Shown here piece by piece: positions 1-64,000 of a DNA stretch of 64,000 bases. Below the pieces are notes generated by a model. It worked only from the letters and a program-made list of their open reading frames with translations. It made no database searches and was not told the origin of the DNA. Position 1 is the stretch's first letter; every line of letters begins with the position of its first letter. Position numbers and translations under genes: made by a program. The DNA is from Chondrosia reniformis. Lineage: Eukaryota; Porifera; Demospongiae; Chondrillida; Chondrillidae. The stretch spans positions 6,992,401 through 7,056,400 of the forward strand of contig OX359192.1 in NCBI GenBank assembly GCA_947172415.1. The letters are read 5' to 3'.

Positions 1-3000
1 CAGACTATCTTCCTTCGGAGGGCCTTTCCGAATGTCCTGGATGAGGGCGTGGTTAGCTATGGTCCATGTCAGTTCCCCACCCTTGGCTTTGTGGTCGACA
101 GGGTGAGGTGTATGTACTTGTGTTCATCTACTCTGATCACATGTCAGTTGTGTGTTGCTCTGTATTTAGTATAAAATGATCAAGGCATTCATTCCTGAAG
201 CCTTTTACAAAATCAGAGGTAATGATGTGATTGAGTGTGACAGGATTGTAAAGGCTGAGTACACTGCGTGTTCTTCTATATCTAGTCACTCATGTCAAGG
301 ATCAAGTGAATGTTGAGTTTGCATGGAAAAGGTAAAAGACATTTTCTACTAATCAATATAAAACAATCCATAATAATTCTTCTGTGGCTTCTGTGCATGT
401 CCAAGTGATCTATTTGTATTCCTTCCCATTCATCCCTTAATTAAACCAGCTAGATACAATCAGTTAACTAATTTAACAATTTTTTTTCTTTGCAAGGAAT
501 CGCGTCTTCCATCACACTGTGTGTTTGATTCTTTATCACACAACTCTGGAGGTAGGTATATTTCCACATTGTGTGTTCACAAGTATCACATTGCAATATA
601 TGTAATGCATCCATTTTAGATTGGATGTAATTCCTTAGATTATTTTATACATTCTGTTGACTGTATTAGAATCCTGTAGCTCGAGTGGTGAATATTCAAG
701 GAAGACATCGTTCTAAATGGCGACCAGCACCCCTGGACACTGTGGTAAAATTATTGTGATGGTTGAGGATAGAAAAACATTATTATTTTAATTTTAAAAG
801 AAATAGGACTGTCTAAAATTTAAAGAAAGTGTTATTGAAGACAATTTAAAGACTAAAACAATTTGGTGAAAAATGATGGGATTCAAAATAGATTGTTATA
901 AGTCATGGGTTTATAAACTAGTGGTATAAGGTTACTTGACAATGAAGAAAGTTTGGAGTTTAAAGGTAACTAATGCATCTTCTCCTGTCTTCTTCTTATG
1001 ATCAGGAACTGGAAAAGTTGGCTGTAAGGAAATTGAGAATTAGTGCTAAAACAGCAATGTCAATTGCCGAGAAGCTCTATACAAAAGGGTATGTAGAAAG
1101 ACCCGTGCGTGCAGGTATACTTCATATCTGTAGTCTAATGCCTGGATTGATATAGGGATGACTAATGGTCAGTATATTAAGTTACGGTTGTGCGCATGTA
1201 CATATGTAGATATATCAGTTATCCAAGGACTGAAACCAATATCTTCCCTCCATCTGTTGATGTGAGAGCACTGATTGAGAAGCAGACTGCGGATACTCAA
1301 TGGGGAGGTTAGATGAGCCGGTCTACCAGCATTGACCATCCGATACCTTTGTACAAAGTGTTAGAGCTTCTAGCAAGTTTCTTTGCCTAGGAAATGTGAG
1401 CATTCTTCTCATTTCTGTTAGCATTTGCAGTTCATCTGTTAGCAGGCAACCCAAGTCCGAGACAGGGGAAGAAGACAGATAATGCCCATCCTCCTATTCA
1501 CCCTACCAGGCACACAAATGATCTCCAAGTGACTGCCTTTGAGCATGTACATATATGAATATATGTAAGTGTATTCTCCATTCTCTGTTGTACTAGGGTG
1601 ATGACAGACGCCTTTTTGAACTGGTGACTAGGCATTTCTTAGCATCCTGTTCACAAGTAAGTACTTAAAAGCTATTGACATAAGGAGTAGCTGACACTGT
1701 TGCTTGTTGCAGGATGCAGAAGGGTACGAGACAACAGTAGAGATTGATATTTCTGGTGAACAGGTTAGCTATCCAGTCCCACCTCACTCAGAAGCCGCTG
1801 ATTGCAGAGTTGTACACGTGCAACCTTCTCCACTTCCCTCCAGTTTACAGCCCAGGGTCTTGTAATCACAGCTAGGAACTACCTGGATGTGTACCCTTAT
1901 GAGCAATGGAATGCAAAGGTTGGCTCACACAATCCTATTACTGCAACAGCTGTGTAACTATGAGTAAAACCCTGGTGTTGATTGCTTTAGACCATCCCAA
2001 TATATCAGCAAGGAGAGTCTTTCCAGCCCACAGCTATTGAGGTATGATGTAATGGTGTGTTACGGTGTTATGGTATTATGTAATTGTGTCCCTATTGTAT
2101 TCTTCCAAGATGGTTGAAGGAGAGACAAGTCCTCCATCCTTGTTAACCGAAGCAGATCTCATTGGACTTATGGAAAAGCACGGAATAGGTCAGTTGTTTT
2201 GGACTTTCAAAGTATTCCCATAAATGAGACACCACACCCCCACCCCCATCCCCAGGGGGTATTTACTCATAATATGGAGCACCATTTATATACATTTATA
2301 TGTGTGCTGTGTGTCCCTTCTTAGGTACTGATGCTACTCATGCTGAACACATAGAGACCATTAAGAACAGAAAGTATGTGGGAGTCAGAGATGATGGTTG
2401 CTTTGTTCCTGGTGAACTAGGAATGGGACTTGTTGAGGGTATGTTAATGTGCATGACCATGACACATGCTCCAACCAGTTCAGTAATGAAACTAATTTAA
2501 TTTCTCTTGACATTTGGTATATGTGTAGACATTTTGTTTTTGTGTCATTTTGAAAGCAATATATACCGGGCAATTTGCATGTGTTTACAGGTTATAACAG
2601 TATGGGATTGAGTCTTTCCAAGCCTTTCTTACGAGCTGAACTGGAAGATGATTTACGGAAGTAAGTGTCTCACTCACTCCTGCCATTACTAGAGAAGTGC
2701 AGCTCAGCTCACAGCAGTAATATTCACATGTTGAATGATGTATGTACATGGATCAGAATCAACATGCGGTAATACATTTGTCTTTCTGTAGAATCTGCAA
2801 TGGGCTAATTTCAAGAGATGGTAAGATTGTTTGTGGACCTTCAATCTATTCTGTACAACAGACATCATTATCATCTCTGCTTGCAGCTGTAGTCAGGGAC
2901 AACATTCAGAGATATCAGGATGTCTTTGTCAAGTCTGTGGCCCAGGTGATGTTGTGTATTGTAGTCAGTAATCAAGGTGCTAGTAAGAATAGCAGGGTAT

Positions 3001-4332
3001 ATATTCTAAGGTCCTGTCTATATGAAATGTTTTTGCTTAAAAACCTTTCTTTGGGCCTAAATACCCTATATCCATTCAAATTATCCTAAGAAAATCATAT
3101 AGTGATTCTTATCAATTCTAAGTTAGTAAGTTGTAGTTGATTTTTCATTTCAATGACACATGGTGGTCGTATATGCAAATAGGCTTCCTCACTGGAAAGG
3201 GCCTTGGAGAAGTACTTTGGTAGCTCAGGGAACAGGGGACCAAGCTCATCAATGTAAGAGTGACACAATTTGATCACACTGTTCATCTACTGTCCAACAA
3301 TATATATACATATACCCATAAATTGACCAATCATTCTTATACTGTAGGGGTGGATCTGTCCCTCCTCCATTTCATCCAGGAGGGGGAGGGGGAGGTGATG
3401 GTGGCGGTGGAGGAGGAGGTGGAGGAGGTGGTTTTCAACACAATATTTCTATGCAAACTGGACCAATTCCTCAAAATACAATGTTGCAATCACAAGCCAG
3501 TTTTTCAGGACAAAAAAGAAAACCTGGATTTTTAGACATAGGAAAGAAGAGAGCAAAGATCAATAATTCCAAGCAGAGTCATACAGAAACAGGAACAAGA
3601 GGGAGAAGGTCAGGTGTGAGGGGAAGACCCAGTTGGGGCCAAGGCGGTTCGAGTAGAGGAAGGGGAGGGAGTTGGAGAGGCAAGAAGCCTGCCTGGAACT
3701 CAGGACAGAGTCACAGAGGCAGCTATCAGCAGTCCAATGTTGGCAGATCAATTGGCAGAGGTGGTTTCAGTGTTGGTGGAACCGGTGGAGTCAGGAAGTG
3801 CTCTGTTTGTAGACAGGGAGGTTAGCTGATATATAAACAGCTTAGCGTCAGACTATATCTACTGAATAATACCATTATTATTTATACTGTGTCACCTACT
3901 CAGTGGTGAATAGGAAGGAGATAGGAAGGAGGGGCAACCTGTGTGGCCAATAAGGAGTGCATGGCTCTCCTATTTGTTGGTCTTCCTTATATGGCAGCGG
4001 TGGCAACTTAGTATTAGATGGGACACATCCTAGACTATAACCACCCATATATCACTACCTTATGATACTACCACGACCCCTAAGTATTATGGGGTTCCAA
4101 AAGGGGGGCAATTGCCTCATGTCCCCCCAGCCTGGATCCACCACTACTACTACACGCCATATACCTATGTATGTGTATGTCACATGTTAGAAATTATCCT
4201 TAATCATTTAATTGGCCATGCTCCATGCAAGTGTGGGTGGCTTATATTATTATCATGTATAATCTATATGGAACATTGATTTATTCAGGGCATACTAAGA
4301 AGAATTGTCCTTTGGCACAACAATTCCAATGA
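1..4332 (+). CDS. TOP3A: DNA topoisomerase III alpha, 3' part (5' end outside window)
   Basis: This is a type IA topoisomerase that passes single strands and, with a BLM-type helicase and RMI partners, dissolves double Holliday junctions in the nucleus. About 17 exons are readable. The first coding exon (1-about 103) reads ..SYGPCQFPTLGFVV, the central-domain signature of TOP3A rather than TOP3B. The active-site motif SYPRTET lies near 1217-1237, with the catalytic Tyr codon at 1220-1222. Further exons give AHPPIHPT (about 1480), HGIGTDATHAEHIETIK (2180-2370) and PGELGMGLVEGY. The last large exon (about 3348-3821) encodes a poly-Gly run followed by an Arg/Gly-rich tail. The final exon (4289-4332) completes a zinc knuckle, C-x2-C-x4-H-x4-C, and the stop is at 4330-4332. 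Exon 2791-2819 splices to 2886 across a 66-bp intron. Identification is secure; a few exon edges are approximate. Confidence 0.93.
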
Positions 4333-7418: not shown

Positions 7419-10400
7419 ATGCGCTCTTTTTTCCTCCGATTATTTGGTCAACGGAAGACTACCAAATTGTTCCATACATCCACTGTCTGTAATTCAAAAG
7501 CTCGAGTATGCATAATTGGGAGCGGTCCAGCTGGATTCTACACCGCTCATCGATTAATTAAGGTAAATTACCACGAGTTAAAGATCTGTACATACAGTGT
7601 TTGGTTGCAGACTACTCGCTCTGTGTATTTAGAGATATCCCGAGGCAGAAGTAGATATTTGGGAACGGTTACCTGTTCCTTACGGGCTGGTGCGGTTCGG
7701 GGTCGCACCAGACCATCCTGAAGTCAAGGTGAGCGATCACGTGACCTGTAATTACTGGCTGCATTGAAATTCCTTTAAATATCAAAATCCTTCCATATGC
7801 TTCTCTCTTGTGTTCCTCTGTAGAATGTTATAAATCAATTTCATGCACTCGCATCAAATGGCAAGGTTAATTTCATTGGTAACGTGGAGATTGGCAAGTC
7901 TGTAAGCCTCCAGTACCTCAGGGACAAGTACAGTGGAGTAGTACTGGTAGGTGTACTATTGCTAAGGAGAATGCAGTCTTTTTAGATATGAATGGTGCTT
8001 ATAGAACACTCCCCTGTAGCACTTACAACTCTACCCAGCCACTCCCCTACAATGAGCCGCATTGAGGAATACATATTCAATGCATATGTCTAACATACTA
8101 TAGATAATCTATGGTTGAACATTATTTCTGTTATGTAAGTAGGTACACTGTTCCTCTCATGTTGTAGGCTTATGGTGCAGCTAACGACCAAACATTAGGA
8201 ATACCTGGTGAAGTGAGTACATATCGTATAGCAGAAACTTTTGGTGGGTATTTTTATAGAAAACTTCTTCACAGGTAGTTTAATTTTCAAGGATTACCTA
8301 CATGTGTATTATAATTATATTTGATAGTAGAAATTTTCATAATTTGAATGGAATCCCGAAAATGGAAACCCGACTTGAAATCCCGCTGTATAGTTTATGA
8401 TATTTAGAATGTTCACATTGAAACATACACTCAACCATACCTCAAAACTGCAATCTTGTAGAACCTCAAGGGGGTGTACTCAGCAAGGCAGTTTGTTGGC
8501 TGGTACAATGGGGTGCCAGAGAATAAAGATGTAAGTGACAGAACACTACTTCTGTTTTGTTTTATTGACCACCTTTATGCATGCTCTATTGACTACTAGT
8601 AAATACTTCCTTTCAGCTCTCTCCAGATCTAAAAGGAGAGAATTCAGTTATAATTGGTCAAGGAAATGTTGCCATAGATGTGGCTAGGATGTTGGTGTCA
8701 GGTGTAGAATTGTTGAAGGTGCAGTATACATGTATGTATGTGTGTGTACGTCTGTGTATGTACGTATGTGTACGTATGTGTATGTACGTATGTGTACGTA
8801 TGTGTACGTATGTGTGTGTATGTGTATGTACGTATGTGTATGTATGTGTGTGTACGTATGTGTATGTGTGTATATATTTGCTCATTAGAACACTGATATC
8901 TGTGAGCATGCACTAGAGACCTTGAGGAGTAGTGAAATAAGGTCTGTGTATCTTGTGGGTCGTAGAGGTCCTCTTGAGGTAAGCTAAGCAGTACATGTAC
9001 ACACACTACACACACACATATATATATACGTATATATTTAAAGAGATAGGAACCATAAATTGTTGAATTGTTGAATTGTCAATATTACTACATATACATA
9101 ATAAATGTATGTACATTATTTCATTTGTTAGGCTGCTTTTACTATTAAAGAGTTAAGAGAGATGGTTAAGCTCCCGACTTGTAAAATGCACATTGATCTA
9201 TCAAGTTTTCCAGACTTACAGAAATCTTTATTGGGTAAGTGTACTCCCCTGTGTATGGGTAGAAGACTGCATTCTGTTTTGTCTAACTCTCAACCAAATG
9301 GATGATCCTCAGCTTCCTTATGAAATGTTAGATGTTGCTAGGCCAAGAAGAAGACTAACAGAGCTCCTTATTAAATCAGCTAGGTTTGGCTTTGTGTCTT
9401 GTTACTGTGGCTGCAGTTTATTAGACTAACACTCCTATGCACTCCTGCTTAACATTCAGATACAATGAAGAGACTTCACAGAGGCATTTCAACTGTAATA
9501 TATTGTTTTTACGTTCTCCTGTGGAGATCATCCCTGATAGTACTAATCACAGAGTGGGCGGAGTAAAGTTTGAGATTAACAGACTTGAGGTACAGTGACT
9601 GAACTTACTGGTTGACATTTGTTTTGATAGTTTGGTATGAATAATTGTTGCAGGCCATAATTAACCATTTCAGCTCTATATAGGAATCTCCAGGTGGACC
9701 ACGGGCAGTGGGTACCGGAAAGTATGAAGTTGTGAAATGTAACACTGTAAGTTTCAGTTACTTCCACCACACGTAGTTTGTAATATGTGGCATCGTGTGT
9801 CTCAGGTCTTTAGGAGTATTGGATACAAGAGCACTAAAGTTGATGATAGCATACCTTTTGATCACAAGCGGGGAATTGTGATAAACACAAGGGGAAGAAT
9901 ACACAATGGTGAGACTACAAATTACAGACACAAACACTAGACAGATTGAGAATTCATTTGGTCCAAATAGTATGCTCTTGAGTTGAATATTCAGCCTAAT
10001 TTGATGGCCTATTGCAATACATATATATACACGTACATATATGGGATGGTAACAATTAAGGTATTTTAAGATGACAAGAATATTGAAGAAACCTAACCTT
10101 AATTGTAGTAATATACCATATTCCTCCATCGTATTCATGGTGTGATATGAATTGTTTTCTCTTAACCTATGCTGCCTGGTGCTTACAGAGAATGGAGTTG
10201 AAGTTAAAGGTGGGTGCATATTGAGCATGTTGGTCAATGATAAAATACAATAGAGTTGCATGACAATAATAGATAAATCATGGACTGATTCAATTAGATT
10301 TTATTCTTCTGAATATGGGCCAGCTATATATGTAAGTAGTCCTATGAATATTCTGCATGCATATATTGAGCAGAGTGTATTGTCTGCAACTCCATATGTG

Positions 10401-42999: not shown

Positions 43000-59691
<16,692 letters not shown>

Positions 59692-59849: not shown

Positions 59850-62800
59850 TTATGAAGATGGAGGTAATGCTACCTGCTCCTTCTGATACCCACGACAAGG
59901 ACAAAGTCGAATATAGTTGATGTTTTCACCTATGCATTCAAATAAGCATAGAAATGTATCCACTTATGAAACATATCAATTTGTAGCCATGGCAATGTTA
60001 CACAACCAACCAGAACAGCTATAAAGGAGAGGTTCACTGTTAATCACACAAGTGCCTCTTCTAAATTTCATAAGTGTATCATCTTCAGCTACAATTGCCG
60101 GTACAAAGTCCATATATTGAGAAGTAGCCACCACATCATTGCATTTAAAGTGTTCCTCAAGAGCCTATAAATTAAATTTTAACACAAACCATGCACAAAC
60201 ATTTACTAGCCTGAATACACTCACTTGTTCTTTGTTCAATTGCTTGAAATAAGCTGGTTCACAGATCTGTATTTGTAAAATCATAGGCTATCATATACAT
60301 ACATGAAAAATCTAATATACCATTTTCCTACATGCTATATGCCTATTCTGTAAAAAGAGCCTATAGGGGAGCTAATGCACTAAAACTAAAACTATACATA
60401 CATGTATAACTATAAACAAGGTACAATACAGTGCTAACTGGACTTGTGTACTGGATATATTGCACTTCTAGTTTTAGCACGTACCAAAGATTTTTCAGCA
60501 CAGGTAGTCTTACAGGACTCCCCCCTCCTTGATACTTCTGGTTTAAAGTGTCTCCAATCTACAGGAAATGAAAAATGCTGTCAAGTGGGACAAAGCACAA
60601 CCCACAGCACCAATCTTCTTAAAAATAATTTTATCTCATTTAGAAAGGAAGCACTGTCAAAAGCAGAGAAATGAGTACATCCAAGTTATCATATACCAAT
60701 GTACAGTACCTGGCCACAATGGGGATATAGAGTTCTCTTCATATACTTCTACTCCACATAGAACCATGTATTTATCAGCTACATAAAAAGTAATGAAAAG
60801 AATATGCATCTTAACCTTTTCAAGTGTTTAGATTTGCATGACTTGCTTGCAATGCATTACACTATAAAACTGCACCTTTCAAGCTCCTACTACTGATTAC
60901 AACGTGTCTAGCAAACACAAAGATATCATCCCAAACATAGAAAACTCTATATAAACACATGATAATGAAGAGAATGTAAACATAAACACATGGCAAATGA
61001 AGAGAATGTAAACAAAATACATCCTTGCATACTAGACTAAGTACCATACAATAGTATATTATAAGCCACGACCTTCTGTCTGTGAAAGTTCTCTTAGCAA
61101 TCTCCTGTCCATCTGAGTCCAAAAGAGTCACTTGAAATGGAGCCAAATCAGTTGTACTGCCCCAACTTCGCTGTGTGAGTAAGTCGGGCTGAAGGAAGGA
61201 GGAAACACAGTACTACCTAGCTGACATGGCATAGCGCTGTGCAGCACTAACAACAAATATGTACATGTGTAGCTAGCAAAACAAATCTACTACAAAATTA
61301 GGTACACTGGGTATATACAGTACGTATTTTGTGACCATAATTTTGATTTTTGTTCATGTTCAAACTACTGTATTGAAGTCAGTACACATGCATATTATTA
61401 TTATATAACTGGATTTCAATACTTTAGGAGATAAAGTAACAACTAACAATAATCACAGGCTCTTGCATTTGATTGCAATCTCACAATATGGTATGCAATA
61501 ATATACAATGTACTTGCACAATGCCTCCATTGCCTCAGGATACAATATACACATTCTCCTTACTGAGTTATATATCCTAATCTTCCTAATGGTTGTCTCT
61601 CTCTGGAGGTCAACAGACCACCAGGAGTTCTGCCTAGTCTCCGACCACCAGCACGTATGCATATCCAATACCCCATCCACAGCCTCATTAGGAGAATGTT
61701 CTGCAAAACTTGAGCTTGACTTAGCTACAGTAAGAAACAAACTTACTCATCTTCAGATATTTGTAAGCCATTTAACAAACCTTCCTTGTTTAGTGCTATA
61801 TTGGAACCATCACAAAAGTGTTGATGCAATAACAACGTTCCAAGTCGTTCAAGAAATCCCTTTGGAAAAAGAATACACAATATGCTGTGAAAGGCATACA
61901 CATTGGGAACCTCCTGTCACCCACTTTAGCAGTAAACTCAAAAGGTAAAAATGGCTTTAAGGGACCTGCTTGCAAGATCTTCCTTGCTACAGTTCTGACA
62001 TCATCCAAAGTGTGTGCATCCACTGTGTATACCTGTACATACAGACACACTGGAATATGATATACTGTATGTGTCATACGCACATTACAACTTAGCAAGA
62101 CATACAGAGTAATGTAAAATATAACTTATTTAAAAACAGTTTTTAAACAGCCACAAACATATAAATCCAGCCTCAACAAGCTTTGTTTTTTTGATTCATG
62201 TGTTTATAATTATAATATAAAAATGTAATACATTGAATAGGGAAGCCATGTTTTTCCTGCTACATACGTATTTCTACTTTTTAGTATAATTGTACTCTCC
62301 AATGTACGAACCAATTTACTAATCCTGAAGAACCAACAAACCAGGGAGGGGAGTCAGTGGGTGGATATTAATATACATATACACAAGGATTCACAGAAGA
62401 TCAAGATAAAGAAAAAGACAAAGACTCCCAGGATCACTGATGAAGGGTGGAATTCCCAGAAACGGCTGTCTGACCCAGTGGAGAAGAAGATGAAAGAAGG
62501 GAAAAGAAGGAAGAAAAGACTACTGTATCTTCATCTAAAGCTCTCTTTAGGTTTAGTTCCCCTATAGGCTCTTTTTACAGAATAGGCATATAGCATGTAG
62601 GAAAATGGTATCTTAGATTTTTCATATACACCTAACTAACATTGCAGACTAGACATATACACTAACATATGGCTCTCCAATGAAGTCTTCAAGGTAAGGA
62701 TGCTGAGATGCCAAAAAACGTTTGGTAGGTTTTCCAGCAAAGAAAGCCTACAGAAATGAAGACATTACATAAATCCCATTTTGAAAGGCTATGAAATAGA

Positions 62801-64000
62801 CAACACAAGTATACAACAGATAATGAGCACAAGTGATACTCCTTGTAAAGCATGTTAATTCATCCGTCCTTACATTGTTTACTTTGTTATATGGCGGATT
62901 AAATCTTGGCTGAATAAATGGGCATCCATTGGCCAGAGCCTCAAGGGGCCCAGGGCCTTGTGAAAGAGCAACAGCAGCCAGTTAGGACAGATCACTCCTA
63001 ATTATTGGCATAACATACCTTCATAGGGAAAGCCAAGTCCGATAAAGAGCTTTGAGGACTGAAGCATGCTGTGGGAGATGAGACAATAAGACCACTATCC
63101 CATAGAGGTGCCATTTTATCAATCATGACTAACATTTGAAGTTCCTTGTAAGGTAAAACACCATGATTGGTATAGTAGGAAGTGGAGTAATTCTCTGGAA
63201 AAGTGGCTTGAATATCAAAGTAAGTTGCAAGAGTTTTCAGATAATCAGTACGTCCTTTTGTGTATCGCACTACAAGTCATAGAATCAATTGGTCTTCAAC
63301 ATAAAATCAGGGGGTGTGTCCCATTAGGGTATCAACATAAGGCCAGTGGGCGTGTCACATTAGGTCATCAATACAAGCTTTGGGTATAGGGCAAGTACCA
63401 TCTTTTCCATAGATTACTGCCCAGTTCTTCTTCCTAAGGTTTCTGCTCGATTGAGTGGGAGTTTCAGCAATAAACCCCAGAAATGTATTGTCAGGTGTAT
63501 GTGGATAATAAGTCCAAAATTGTTTAAGATTCTAATGAGAAGAGAAAGAAACCTCTCGTAAAATCTGACTACTTTATTAAACACTTCTCCACATATGAAT
63601 ATAGCTCAGAACACTGAGATGTTGGCAATGTCTACCTCAAGGCACACAAACCTATGTACCTATATGCACTGCTTTGTAGAAAACACTTAAAAATACACAT
63701 AAATACTACAAAGAGATTATGCGATATTACATTAATAATGTTTTCTCTGATCAGTTTAAAAATTTCTATTAAAATCAAAGCAAAGCCACAAAAGTACTGG
63801 GGCTATTTCAAATAGATTAGGGAGGACAGTACAGGAACCACTTTGTAGTTGGCAGCCAGGTGGTGATAAGCTTCAATCAGACAACCCTCCAGCCCACATA
63901 GGAACACTGCTACACTTAGGTCATACTTGAACTGTTTTACTGGGATCTCTGCAATAAAACAACTTAATTGTTTTGCAGCCAGATTTGTTCCCATATATGG
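59850..64000 (-). CDS. MGAT5: MGAT5-type N-acetylglucosaminyltransferase V (GT18) with an inserted F5/8C domain; 5' end outside window
   Basis: The family adds beta-1,6-GlcNAc to N-glycan trimannosyl cores in the Golgi. Exons read (minus): a GT18-side exon at about 63842-63948; FWTYYPHTPDNTFLGF (63399-63531); TNHGVLPYKELQML, then SSKLFIGLGFPYE (about 63010-63270); PLEALANGCPFIQPRFNPP (about 62875-62960); FAGKPTKRFLASQHPYLEDF (about 62665-62750); VYTVDAHTLDDVRTVARKIL with LPFEFTAK; then FLERLGTLLLHQHFCDG (61781-61859). Four exons of an F5/8C domain follow. The family's Cys-rich tail then resumes: GESCKTTCAEKSL (60485-60558), ICEPAYFKQLNKEQ (60225-60266), RRGTCVINSEPLLYSCSG (60011-60164) and RLCPCRGYQKEQVAL (59850-59929). 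All junctions from 61859 to the stop keep frame. The convergent neighbour is the NBEAL gene. Confidence 0.93.
60300..60378 (-). repeat. Inverted copy of the repeat end found at 62555-62635
   Basis: ATACCATTTTCCTACATGC followed by CTATATGCCTATTCTG and AAAAAGAGCCTATAGGGGAG is the reverse complement of 62555-62635. Both copies lie in introns of the MGAT5 gene. Confidence 0.8.
60710..61859 (-). other. F5/8-type-C (discoidin / fucolectin-like) domain inserted in MGAT5
   Basis: Exons 61564-61724, 61073-61188, 60876-60907 and 60710-60778, plus the last codons of 61781-61859, encode about 135 residues. They read SNIALNKEAKSSSS, NEAVDGVLDMHTCWWS, QNSWWSVDLQRETTIRKIRI, APFQVTLLDSDGQEI, RRHVVISSRSLK and DKYMVLCGVEVYEE. 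These are the start, the AVDG and W(W)xVDL signatures and the closing xLCxVEVY strand of the fold. The paired basic residues and CxDR-type motif that bind fucose in true fucolectins are not obviously present, so ligand binding is uncertain. Confidence 0.88.
62395..62635 (+). repeat. Dispersed CTGATGAAGGG repeat, copy 3, with inverted end
   Basis: ATCACTGATGAAGGGTGG, then AATTCCCAGAAACGGCTGTC and CCCAGTGGAGAAG, are followed by a GA-rich run. After that come GGTTTAGTTCCCCTATAGG and CTCTTTTTACAG, the reverse complement of the start of copy 2. The element therefore has inverted ends built on AAAAAGAGCCTATAGGGG. Confidence 0.75.

Follow-up and report, generated by a model that had tools for sequence, protein, structure and literature searches.

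In the structural account of human MGAT5 (GnT-V; CAZy family GT18; PDB codes 5ZIB, 5ZIC and 6YJQ), the boundary between middle domain 1 and the C-terminal domain lies between H627 and G628; C372 and C626 form a disulfide, and the C-terminal domain holds ten cysteines in five disulfides (PMC6107550). The protein also contains an N domain (A128-Y207), and human GnT-V lacking it is reported to lose much of its activity on glycoproteins while nearly keeping that on oligosaccharides (PMC11328876). Among N-glycan branching enzymes, GnT-IVa/b (MGAT4A/B; family GT54) carry a β-sandwich lectin domain (CBM94) that is reported to tune activity and substrate choice (PMC9296478, PMC11328876, PMC12616123). 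The window analysed here is a 64,000-nucleotide stretch of the genome of the sponge Chondrosia reniformis (C4:6992401-7056400 of an assembly of 117,379,552 bases in 15 contigs). Its minus strand carries a GT18 gene in which, almost certainly, an F5/8C (F-type-lectin-like) domain of about 140 residues is inserted between the core and the Cys-rich tail.

The 15 exons of this gene that lie in the window (63531..59850, minus strand), joined in a splice model, give a single open frame of 478 residues that ends in a TAA stop. All 14 introns are bounded by GT-AG, the other two frames of the first gene model contain many stops, and no N occurs between 59800 and 63600. The exon chain is that of the original prediction, which had GT18 exons running into F5/8C and back into the GT18 tail. 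Profile searches of the spliced protein bear out both family assignments and the order of the domains: PF15024 (Glyco_transf_18) matches in two stretches (340.7 bits, E=2.1e-101, cut-off 28), and F5_F8_type_C_2 (38.8 bits, E=1.5e-9) and F5_F8_type_C (30.7 bits) match between them, all three above their curated Pfam cut-offs and well outside what chance would give. The exons are as follows.

63399..63531, minus strand: exon 1, first GT18 exon in the window, NLKQFWTYYPHTPDNTFLGF.. (GT-AG, open frame, alignment to human MGAT5)
63134..63269, minus strand: GT18 exon ..YLKTLATYFDIQAT..NHGVLPYKELQ (splice model, alignment to human MGAT5)
63019..63068, minus strand: GT18 exon MLQSSKLFIGLGFPYEG with the E520 equivalent (splice model and alignment; residue counted by hand from PMC6107550 anchors)
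62874..62956, minus strand: GT18 exon PGPLEALANGCPFIQPRFNPPYNKVNN with the E526 equivalent (splice model, alignment to human MGAT5)
62667..62747, minus strand: GT18 exon AFFAGKPTKRFLASQHPYLEDFIGEPY with the K554 and R558 equivalents (splice model, alignment to human MGAT5)
61925..62032, minus strand: GT18 exon VYTVDAHTLDDVRTVARKILQ..PFEFTAK (splice model, alignment to human MGAT5)
61781..61859, minus strand: junction exon 7, GT18 GFLERLGTLLLHQHFCDG to 61806 and F5/8C SNIALNKE from 61805 (splice model)
61564..61724, minus strand: F5/8C exon 8, KSSSSFAEHSPNEAVDG..WWSVDL..IRIYNS (F5_F8_type_C_2 and PF00754 matches)
61073..61188, minus strand: F5/8C exon 9, PDLLTQRSWGSTTDLAPFQVTLLDSDGQEIAKRTFTDR (alignment to Sm-hPAF, 3le0)
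60876..60946, minus strand: F5/8C exon 10, VFYVWDDIFVFARHVVISSRSLK, with an alternative start at 60907 that is also in frame (splice model)
60710..60778, minus strand: junction exon 11, F5/8C end DKYMVLCGVEVYEEN and GT18 PLWP (LWP from 60719)
60485..60558, minus strand: Cys-rich GT18 tail exon DWRHFKPEVSRRGESCKTTCAEKSL (splice model, alignment to human MGAT5)
60225..60266, minus strand: GT18 tail exon ICEPAYFKQLNKEQ (splice model, alignment to human MGAT5)
60011..60164, minus strand: GT18 tail exon ALEEHFKC..CVINSEPLLYSCSG (splice model, alignment to human MGAT5)
59850..59929, minus strand: last exon, ENINYIRLCPCRGYQKEQVALPPSS and TAA, without the final CxxC of the paralogs described below (splice model, comparison with paralogs)

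Both boundaries between the insert and the GT18 sequence lie within exons. The core end ..HQHFCDG (61806) runs without an intron into SNIALNKE (61805) in exon 61859..61781, as originally predicted, and a second shared exon is found at the other end of the insert, where DKYMVLCGVEVYEEN and GT18 PLWP stand together in exon 60778..60710. In the latter exon, DKYMVLCGVEVYEEN aligns weakly to LCEVEV of FBP32 and LWP aligns to MWP of human MGAT5. Human MGAT5 is represented in the PDB by five distinct sequences, and these align to the sponge protein in two blocks flanking the insert, with residues 182-403 and 405-510 of 6yjq corresponding to residues 2-216 and 347-461 of the first gene model. The two human stretches are nearly contiguous; therefore, nothing is present at the insert position in the human protein, which agrees with the earlier statement that human MGAT5 has no such domain. 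Moreover, the Cys of sponge HFC aligns to the C626 site, and the insert is therefore located on the human H627/G628 subdomain boundary.

Two side-by-side genes are ruled out, since GT18 and F5/8C codons share one exon at both ends of the insert. More broadly, the exon chain was read by eye and might wrongly join two genes that are neighbours or nested, or reflect an error of assembly or annotation; against this stand the two shared exons, the resumption of GT18 in frame past the insert with its own tail, and the lack of any N in the region. This explanation is largely refuted and we regard it as extremely improbable. Insertion of the F5/8C domain within one GT18 gene is, judged from the sequence, near certain.

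The start of exon 10 is placed at 60907 in the first gene model (60907..60876) and at 60946 in the second (60946..60876), and the frame is open with either. The second was preferred because, in a comparison made by eye, the shorter exon would leave the domain one strand short of F-type lectins. Between the first and second models, the Sm-hPAF score was the only one to rise (34.2 to 35.2 bits); 2j1r went from 31.3 to 31.0, PF22633 on the insert from 41.9 to 41.3, PF00754 from 33.2 to 32.9, and GT18 from 346 to 340.7 bits. The scores lean slightly toward 60907 and do not settle the choice. Splice-site scores were trained on the introns of this gene itself, with the 60946 site left out, and have no bearing on this start.

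By sequence comparison, the insert is a relative of the F-type lectins. Searched alone, it matches PF22633 (F5_F8_type_C_2; 41.3 bits, E=2.5e-10, cut-off 27.8) over profile positions 2-48 of 91 and PF00754 (32.9 bits, cut-off 28.2) over positions 2-59 of 127. Its top relatives in the PDB are Sm-hPAF (1.3e-7), the fucolectin-related 2j1r and 2j22 (2.6e-6 and 8e-5) and FBP32 (1.7e-4), and the homology covers approximately the first 100 residues. The insert shares with F-type lectins (Sm-hPAF, 3le0; 2j1r; FBP32, 3cqo; eel agglutinin, 1k12) the WW.VDL core, present as WWSVDL, and two cysteines where the F-type jelly-roll fold has C50 and C146. The sponge domain differs from these lectins in its fucose triad, in the motif hhDG(N/D/S) and at E147, and in sitting inside a glycosyltransferase.

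The fucose motif of F-type lectins is described as HX24RXDX4(R/K), in eel-agglutinin numbering (PMC5712786). Counted from C50, H52 is replaced by W and R79 by S in the insert, while D81 and R86 are kept; the ungapped FBP32 stretch behind this count is weak by itself. The His52 site is W by spacing and E in the 2j1r alignment, and is His in none of the alignments. One of the three fucose-contacting residues (R86) is thus left, and the equivalent of E147 is G. The term 'fucolectin-like' in the original prediction holds for the homology to Sm-hPAF, 2j1r, 2j22 and FBP32; fucose binding is not supported, with the motif absent and Arg86 alone of the triad kept. 'Fucolectin' describes the ancestry of the domain and not its ligand, which is probably not fucose bound in the canonical F-type manner.

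The GT18 part of the gene is conserved at most of the positions compared, which were counted by hand along alignments to human MGAT5 and anchored on published numbering (PMC6107550). Seven of eight residues (E297, D378, F380, E520, E526, K554 and R558) are identical; these include the catalytic base and the donor-site residues compared (E297, E520, E526, K554, R558) and the acceptor-binding D378 and F380. The C372 and C626 sites are both Cys. Eight cysteines, counted by eye, are found in the sponge tail, compared to ten in the human C-terminal domain. We infer that the gene encodes a GT18 (MGAT5/GnT-V-like) β1,6-N-acetylglucosaminyltransferase of the Golgi. Human MGAT5 shares the core and Cys-rich tail and differs in lacking the F5/8C insert and in having the N domain, which was not found in the sponge gene by tblastn with short paralog pieces.

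The gene reaches upstream past the window edge, and exons built by hand extend it to an ATG at C4:7061268. The first upstream exon (245 nt) contains a stretch that looks membrane-spanning by eye, and is followed in order by RILVFPGLLSYSQYNFAANAFKGGYLGELVQWSDLI, VDFDLVFTDYIGLY..HYKCRLRIIDSFGSEP and ..FNSWIIE; all pieces but the first match the GT18 profile and human MGAT5. The E297, D378 and F380 equivalents come from these hand-built exons. The upstream exons score 70.5 bits against PF15024, and the R, D and W exons together with the core score 316.2 bits. As drawn, the 22 exons (15 in the window and seven upstream) contain no internal stop.

The same assembly also offers an internal comparison, as its 17 GT18 exon matches fall, in our grouping, into three gene clusters. 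Two of these are paralogs of the window gene and lie on the same chromosome, separated by about 455 kb.

C10:6443500-6453400: first GT18 paralog
C10:6899500-6909400: second GT18 paralog

Both pass from core to tail without an insert (EHQ^SYCPDSEAKVQWPPSSEL and EHQ^SFCKGSEARAQWPPKSEL), and the hand-joined core of one of them (p1; the other is p2) aligns to human MGAT5 in one block. They share a phase-0 intron (HQ^SYC and HQ^SFC) that is absent from the window gene; by eye, the introns of the window gene differ from theirs. Both also contain the motif DPC[FY]AS[HY]GV[DN]GSRCSF at GT18 profile positions 1-20; the piece is short, and its scores of 17.2 and 22.7 bits fall below the cut-off of 28. 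The three genes thus have the GT18 core and tail in common, and the paralogs differ from the window gene in having this N-domain motif and a final CxxC, and in having no insert.

Eleven pieces of the paralogs were compared to the window gene with tblastn. Matches in place were obtained with the two lid pieces (4e-10, 5e-9), the two D pieces (4e-4 and 0.004) and a single R piece (0.007); the R piece of p1, the membrane piece of p2 and all four pieces of the N domain are unmatched. No motif of the DPC[FY]AS[HY]GV[DN]GSRCSF type was found by this search, in which the best match of the short N-domain pieces (E=0.05) is on the wrong strand. A profile search with PF15027 gave no match anywhere, controls included, and is uninformative. 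Loss of the N domain from the window gene is possible on these comparisons.

Repeats were observed in and near the GT18 genes. An intron of p1 (L019 ~2900-3800) contains a minisatellite with the translated unit GGMWRDVWVRWDVEGCMGEV, and near both C10 paralogs lie short tandem repeats that translate as PISATPISPTP and CPFCFL (L019 ~376-900 and L020 ~9026-9400). A stretch translated as ELNL[KE]RALDEDTVV occurs within the window gene, in intronic sequence (62434-62574), and again in p1 (L019 ~6763), and is probably a dispersed repeat. An inverted repeat with 76-nt arms (60300-60375 and 62553-62628, 96% complementary, 2177 nt apart) lies in the introns flanking the insert; it was set aside as the cause of the insertion because no fewer than 40 more copies of the element occur in the genome (41 matches including the query, with 40 of 1440 candidates scored).

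A donor for the inserted domain was sought in the same genome, where the insert of the first gene model gave only two matches, both to its own exons. Genome-wide, PF22633 has five exon matches, of which this gene is the best, and PF00754 has nine, of which it is the fourth; the reading frames of eight of the other loci look divergent by eye. Relatives outside this genome were sought in prokaryote and virus collections, which are uninformative on other sponges. Viral contigs gave two and 34 pattern matches and no relative, and the phage collection gave no relative of the GT18 core. With the insert as query, the prokaryote contigs gave three bacterial F5/8C loci among 50 stretches, with 38-43% identity over the first 59 residues. 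No published account of a GT18 protein with an F5/8C insert appeared among titles and abstract openings, a search that left subscription journals mostly outside. The available part of a domain survey of N-glycosylation lists GnT-V as PF15027 plus PF15024, with no mention there of an F5/8C partner (PMC5225481), and the word 'glycosyltransferase' is absent from a review of F-type lectins (PMC5712786).

A convergent gene on the plus strand (~57900-59450 of the window) was also seen; its hand-joined frames match WD40 above the cut-off and the neurobeachin propeller below the cut-offs, and it is probably NBEAL-like.

We tentatively propose, at somewhat less than an even chance, that the gene encodes a Golgi GT18 enzyme with an F5/8C module that docks a substrate or glycan. 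The inserted β-sandwich would fold on its own as a lobe at the subdomain boundary, between the GT-B core and the disulfide-rich C-terminal domain, and would leave the GT18 active site intact. It may bind some feature of the glycoprotein substrate or of its glycan and, as in GnT-IVa/b, raise activity on chosen targets or restrict activity to them. If the N domain is truly missing, the insert would represent a change of docking module. A docking role is assigned because of the analogy with the lectin domain of GnT-IV, and on that analogy it is the most likely role of the insert; our guess is that it is better founded than the originally suggested role as a tether, either within the Golgi or once the enzyme is secreted. 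In GnT-IVa, the C-terminal CBM32-like lectin domain is reported to prefer the product glycan, and D445A retains ~62% activity (PMC9296478). The likeness is one of analogy: GnT-IVa/b belong to an unrelated catalytic family with a proposed GT-A fold, and their lectin domain is C-terminal, whereas the sponge domain is internal.

Several observations weigh against a docking enzyme of this kind. In the insert, the HX24RXDX4(R/K) pattern is absent, and AVDGV stands in place of the strict cation motif h2DG(N/D/S), with one cation ligand degraded. The β-sandwich of IFT25, which resembles the lectin domain of GnT-IVa, is reported to lack its sugar site (PMC9296478); given this and the degraded fucose triad, the fold is no proof of glycan binding. 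In the enzyme, the residue aligned to W401 is F, and a W falls on W404; the exon of this region was picked from a scan that listed only W-containing candidates, which makes the point weak either way. PPSS takes the place of the last CxxC, which the tails of both paralogs have. Upstream, the join from the transmembrane-like exon to the next exon is out of frame as drawn, and no exon to connect ..EMFPPK with VDFDL was found. The apparent absence of the N domain comes from tblastn with short pieces, and the upstream link may hold an N-domain exon. Finally, exons 8-11 total 417 nt, a multiple of 3, so that the frame survives their joint omission and an isoform lacking most of the domain may exist.

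These points feed three other explanations. The insertion may be real and the domain a passive or structural lobe, or one for oligomerisation or retention, without a glycan ligand of its own. This is favored by the altered cation motif and E147 equivalent, by the precedent of IFT25, and by the basic residues that contact fucose, of which two out of three are replaced; on the other side, the frame is intact, the WWSVDL core and the C50-C146 disulfide positions are kept, and D81 and R86 occur at the expected spacing from C50. F5/8C domains, moreover, have many ligands besides fucose. We consider a lobe without ligand somewhat unlikely. That the gene is a decaying or repurposed paralog, its GlcNAc transferase activity gone and its product perhaps now a lectin or scaffold, is quite unlikely: the loss of the final CxxC and apparently of the N domain, the alignment of W401 to F and the two unjoined upstream links are set against 22 stop-free exons as drawn and seven of eight compared residues kept, the catalytic base E297 included. 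In the remaining explanation, exons 8-11 are mostly skipped, the main isoform being an ordinary GT18 protein with a leftover of eight F5/8C residues and the domain a rare cassette. Removal of the block does give an open frame (HFCDGSNIALNKEDWRHFK), but it also removes the GT18 PLWP, whose LWP matches human MWP, and the frame is lost when exon 8, 9 or 10 is left out by itself, though not when exon 11 is; this we consider very unlikely.

Returning to the insert as a docking module, a more specific proposal is that this GnT-V lost its N domain, a polypeptide-docking module, and took on in exchange an F5/8C lobe that binds glycans and is inserted at the opposite end of the catalytic core. We consider this unlikely. 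If it were true, GT18 would count as a second family of N-glycan branching enzymes that carry their own lectin domain, acquired independently of GnT-IV, and the ligand of the insert would differ from the fucose of its lectin ancestors. How branching enzymes choose their targets among glycoproteins is an open question, and the architecture described here suggests a new way of target choice. A natural GT18 gene with an F5/8C insert and two insert-free paralogs in one genome offer a ready comparison for the effect of a β-sandwich domain on substrate choice.

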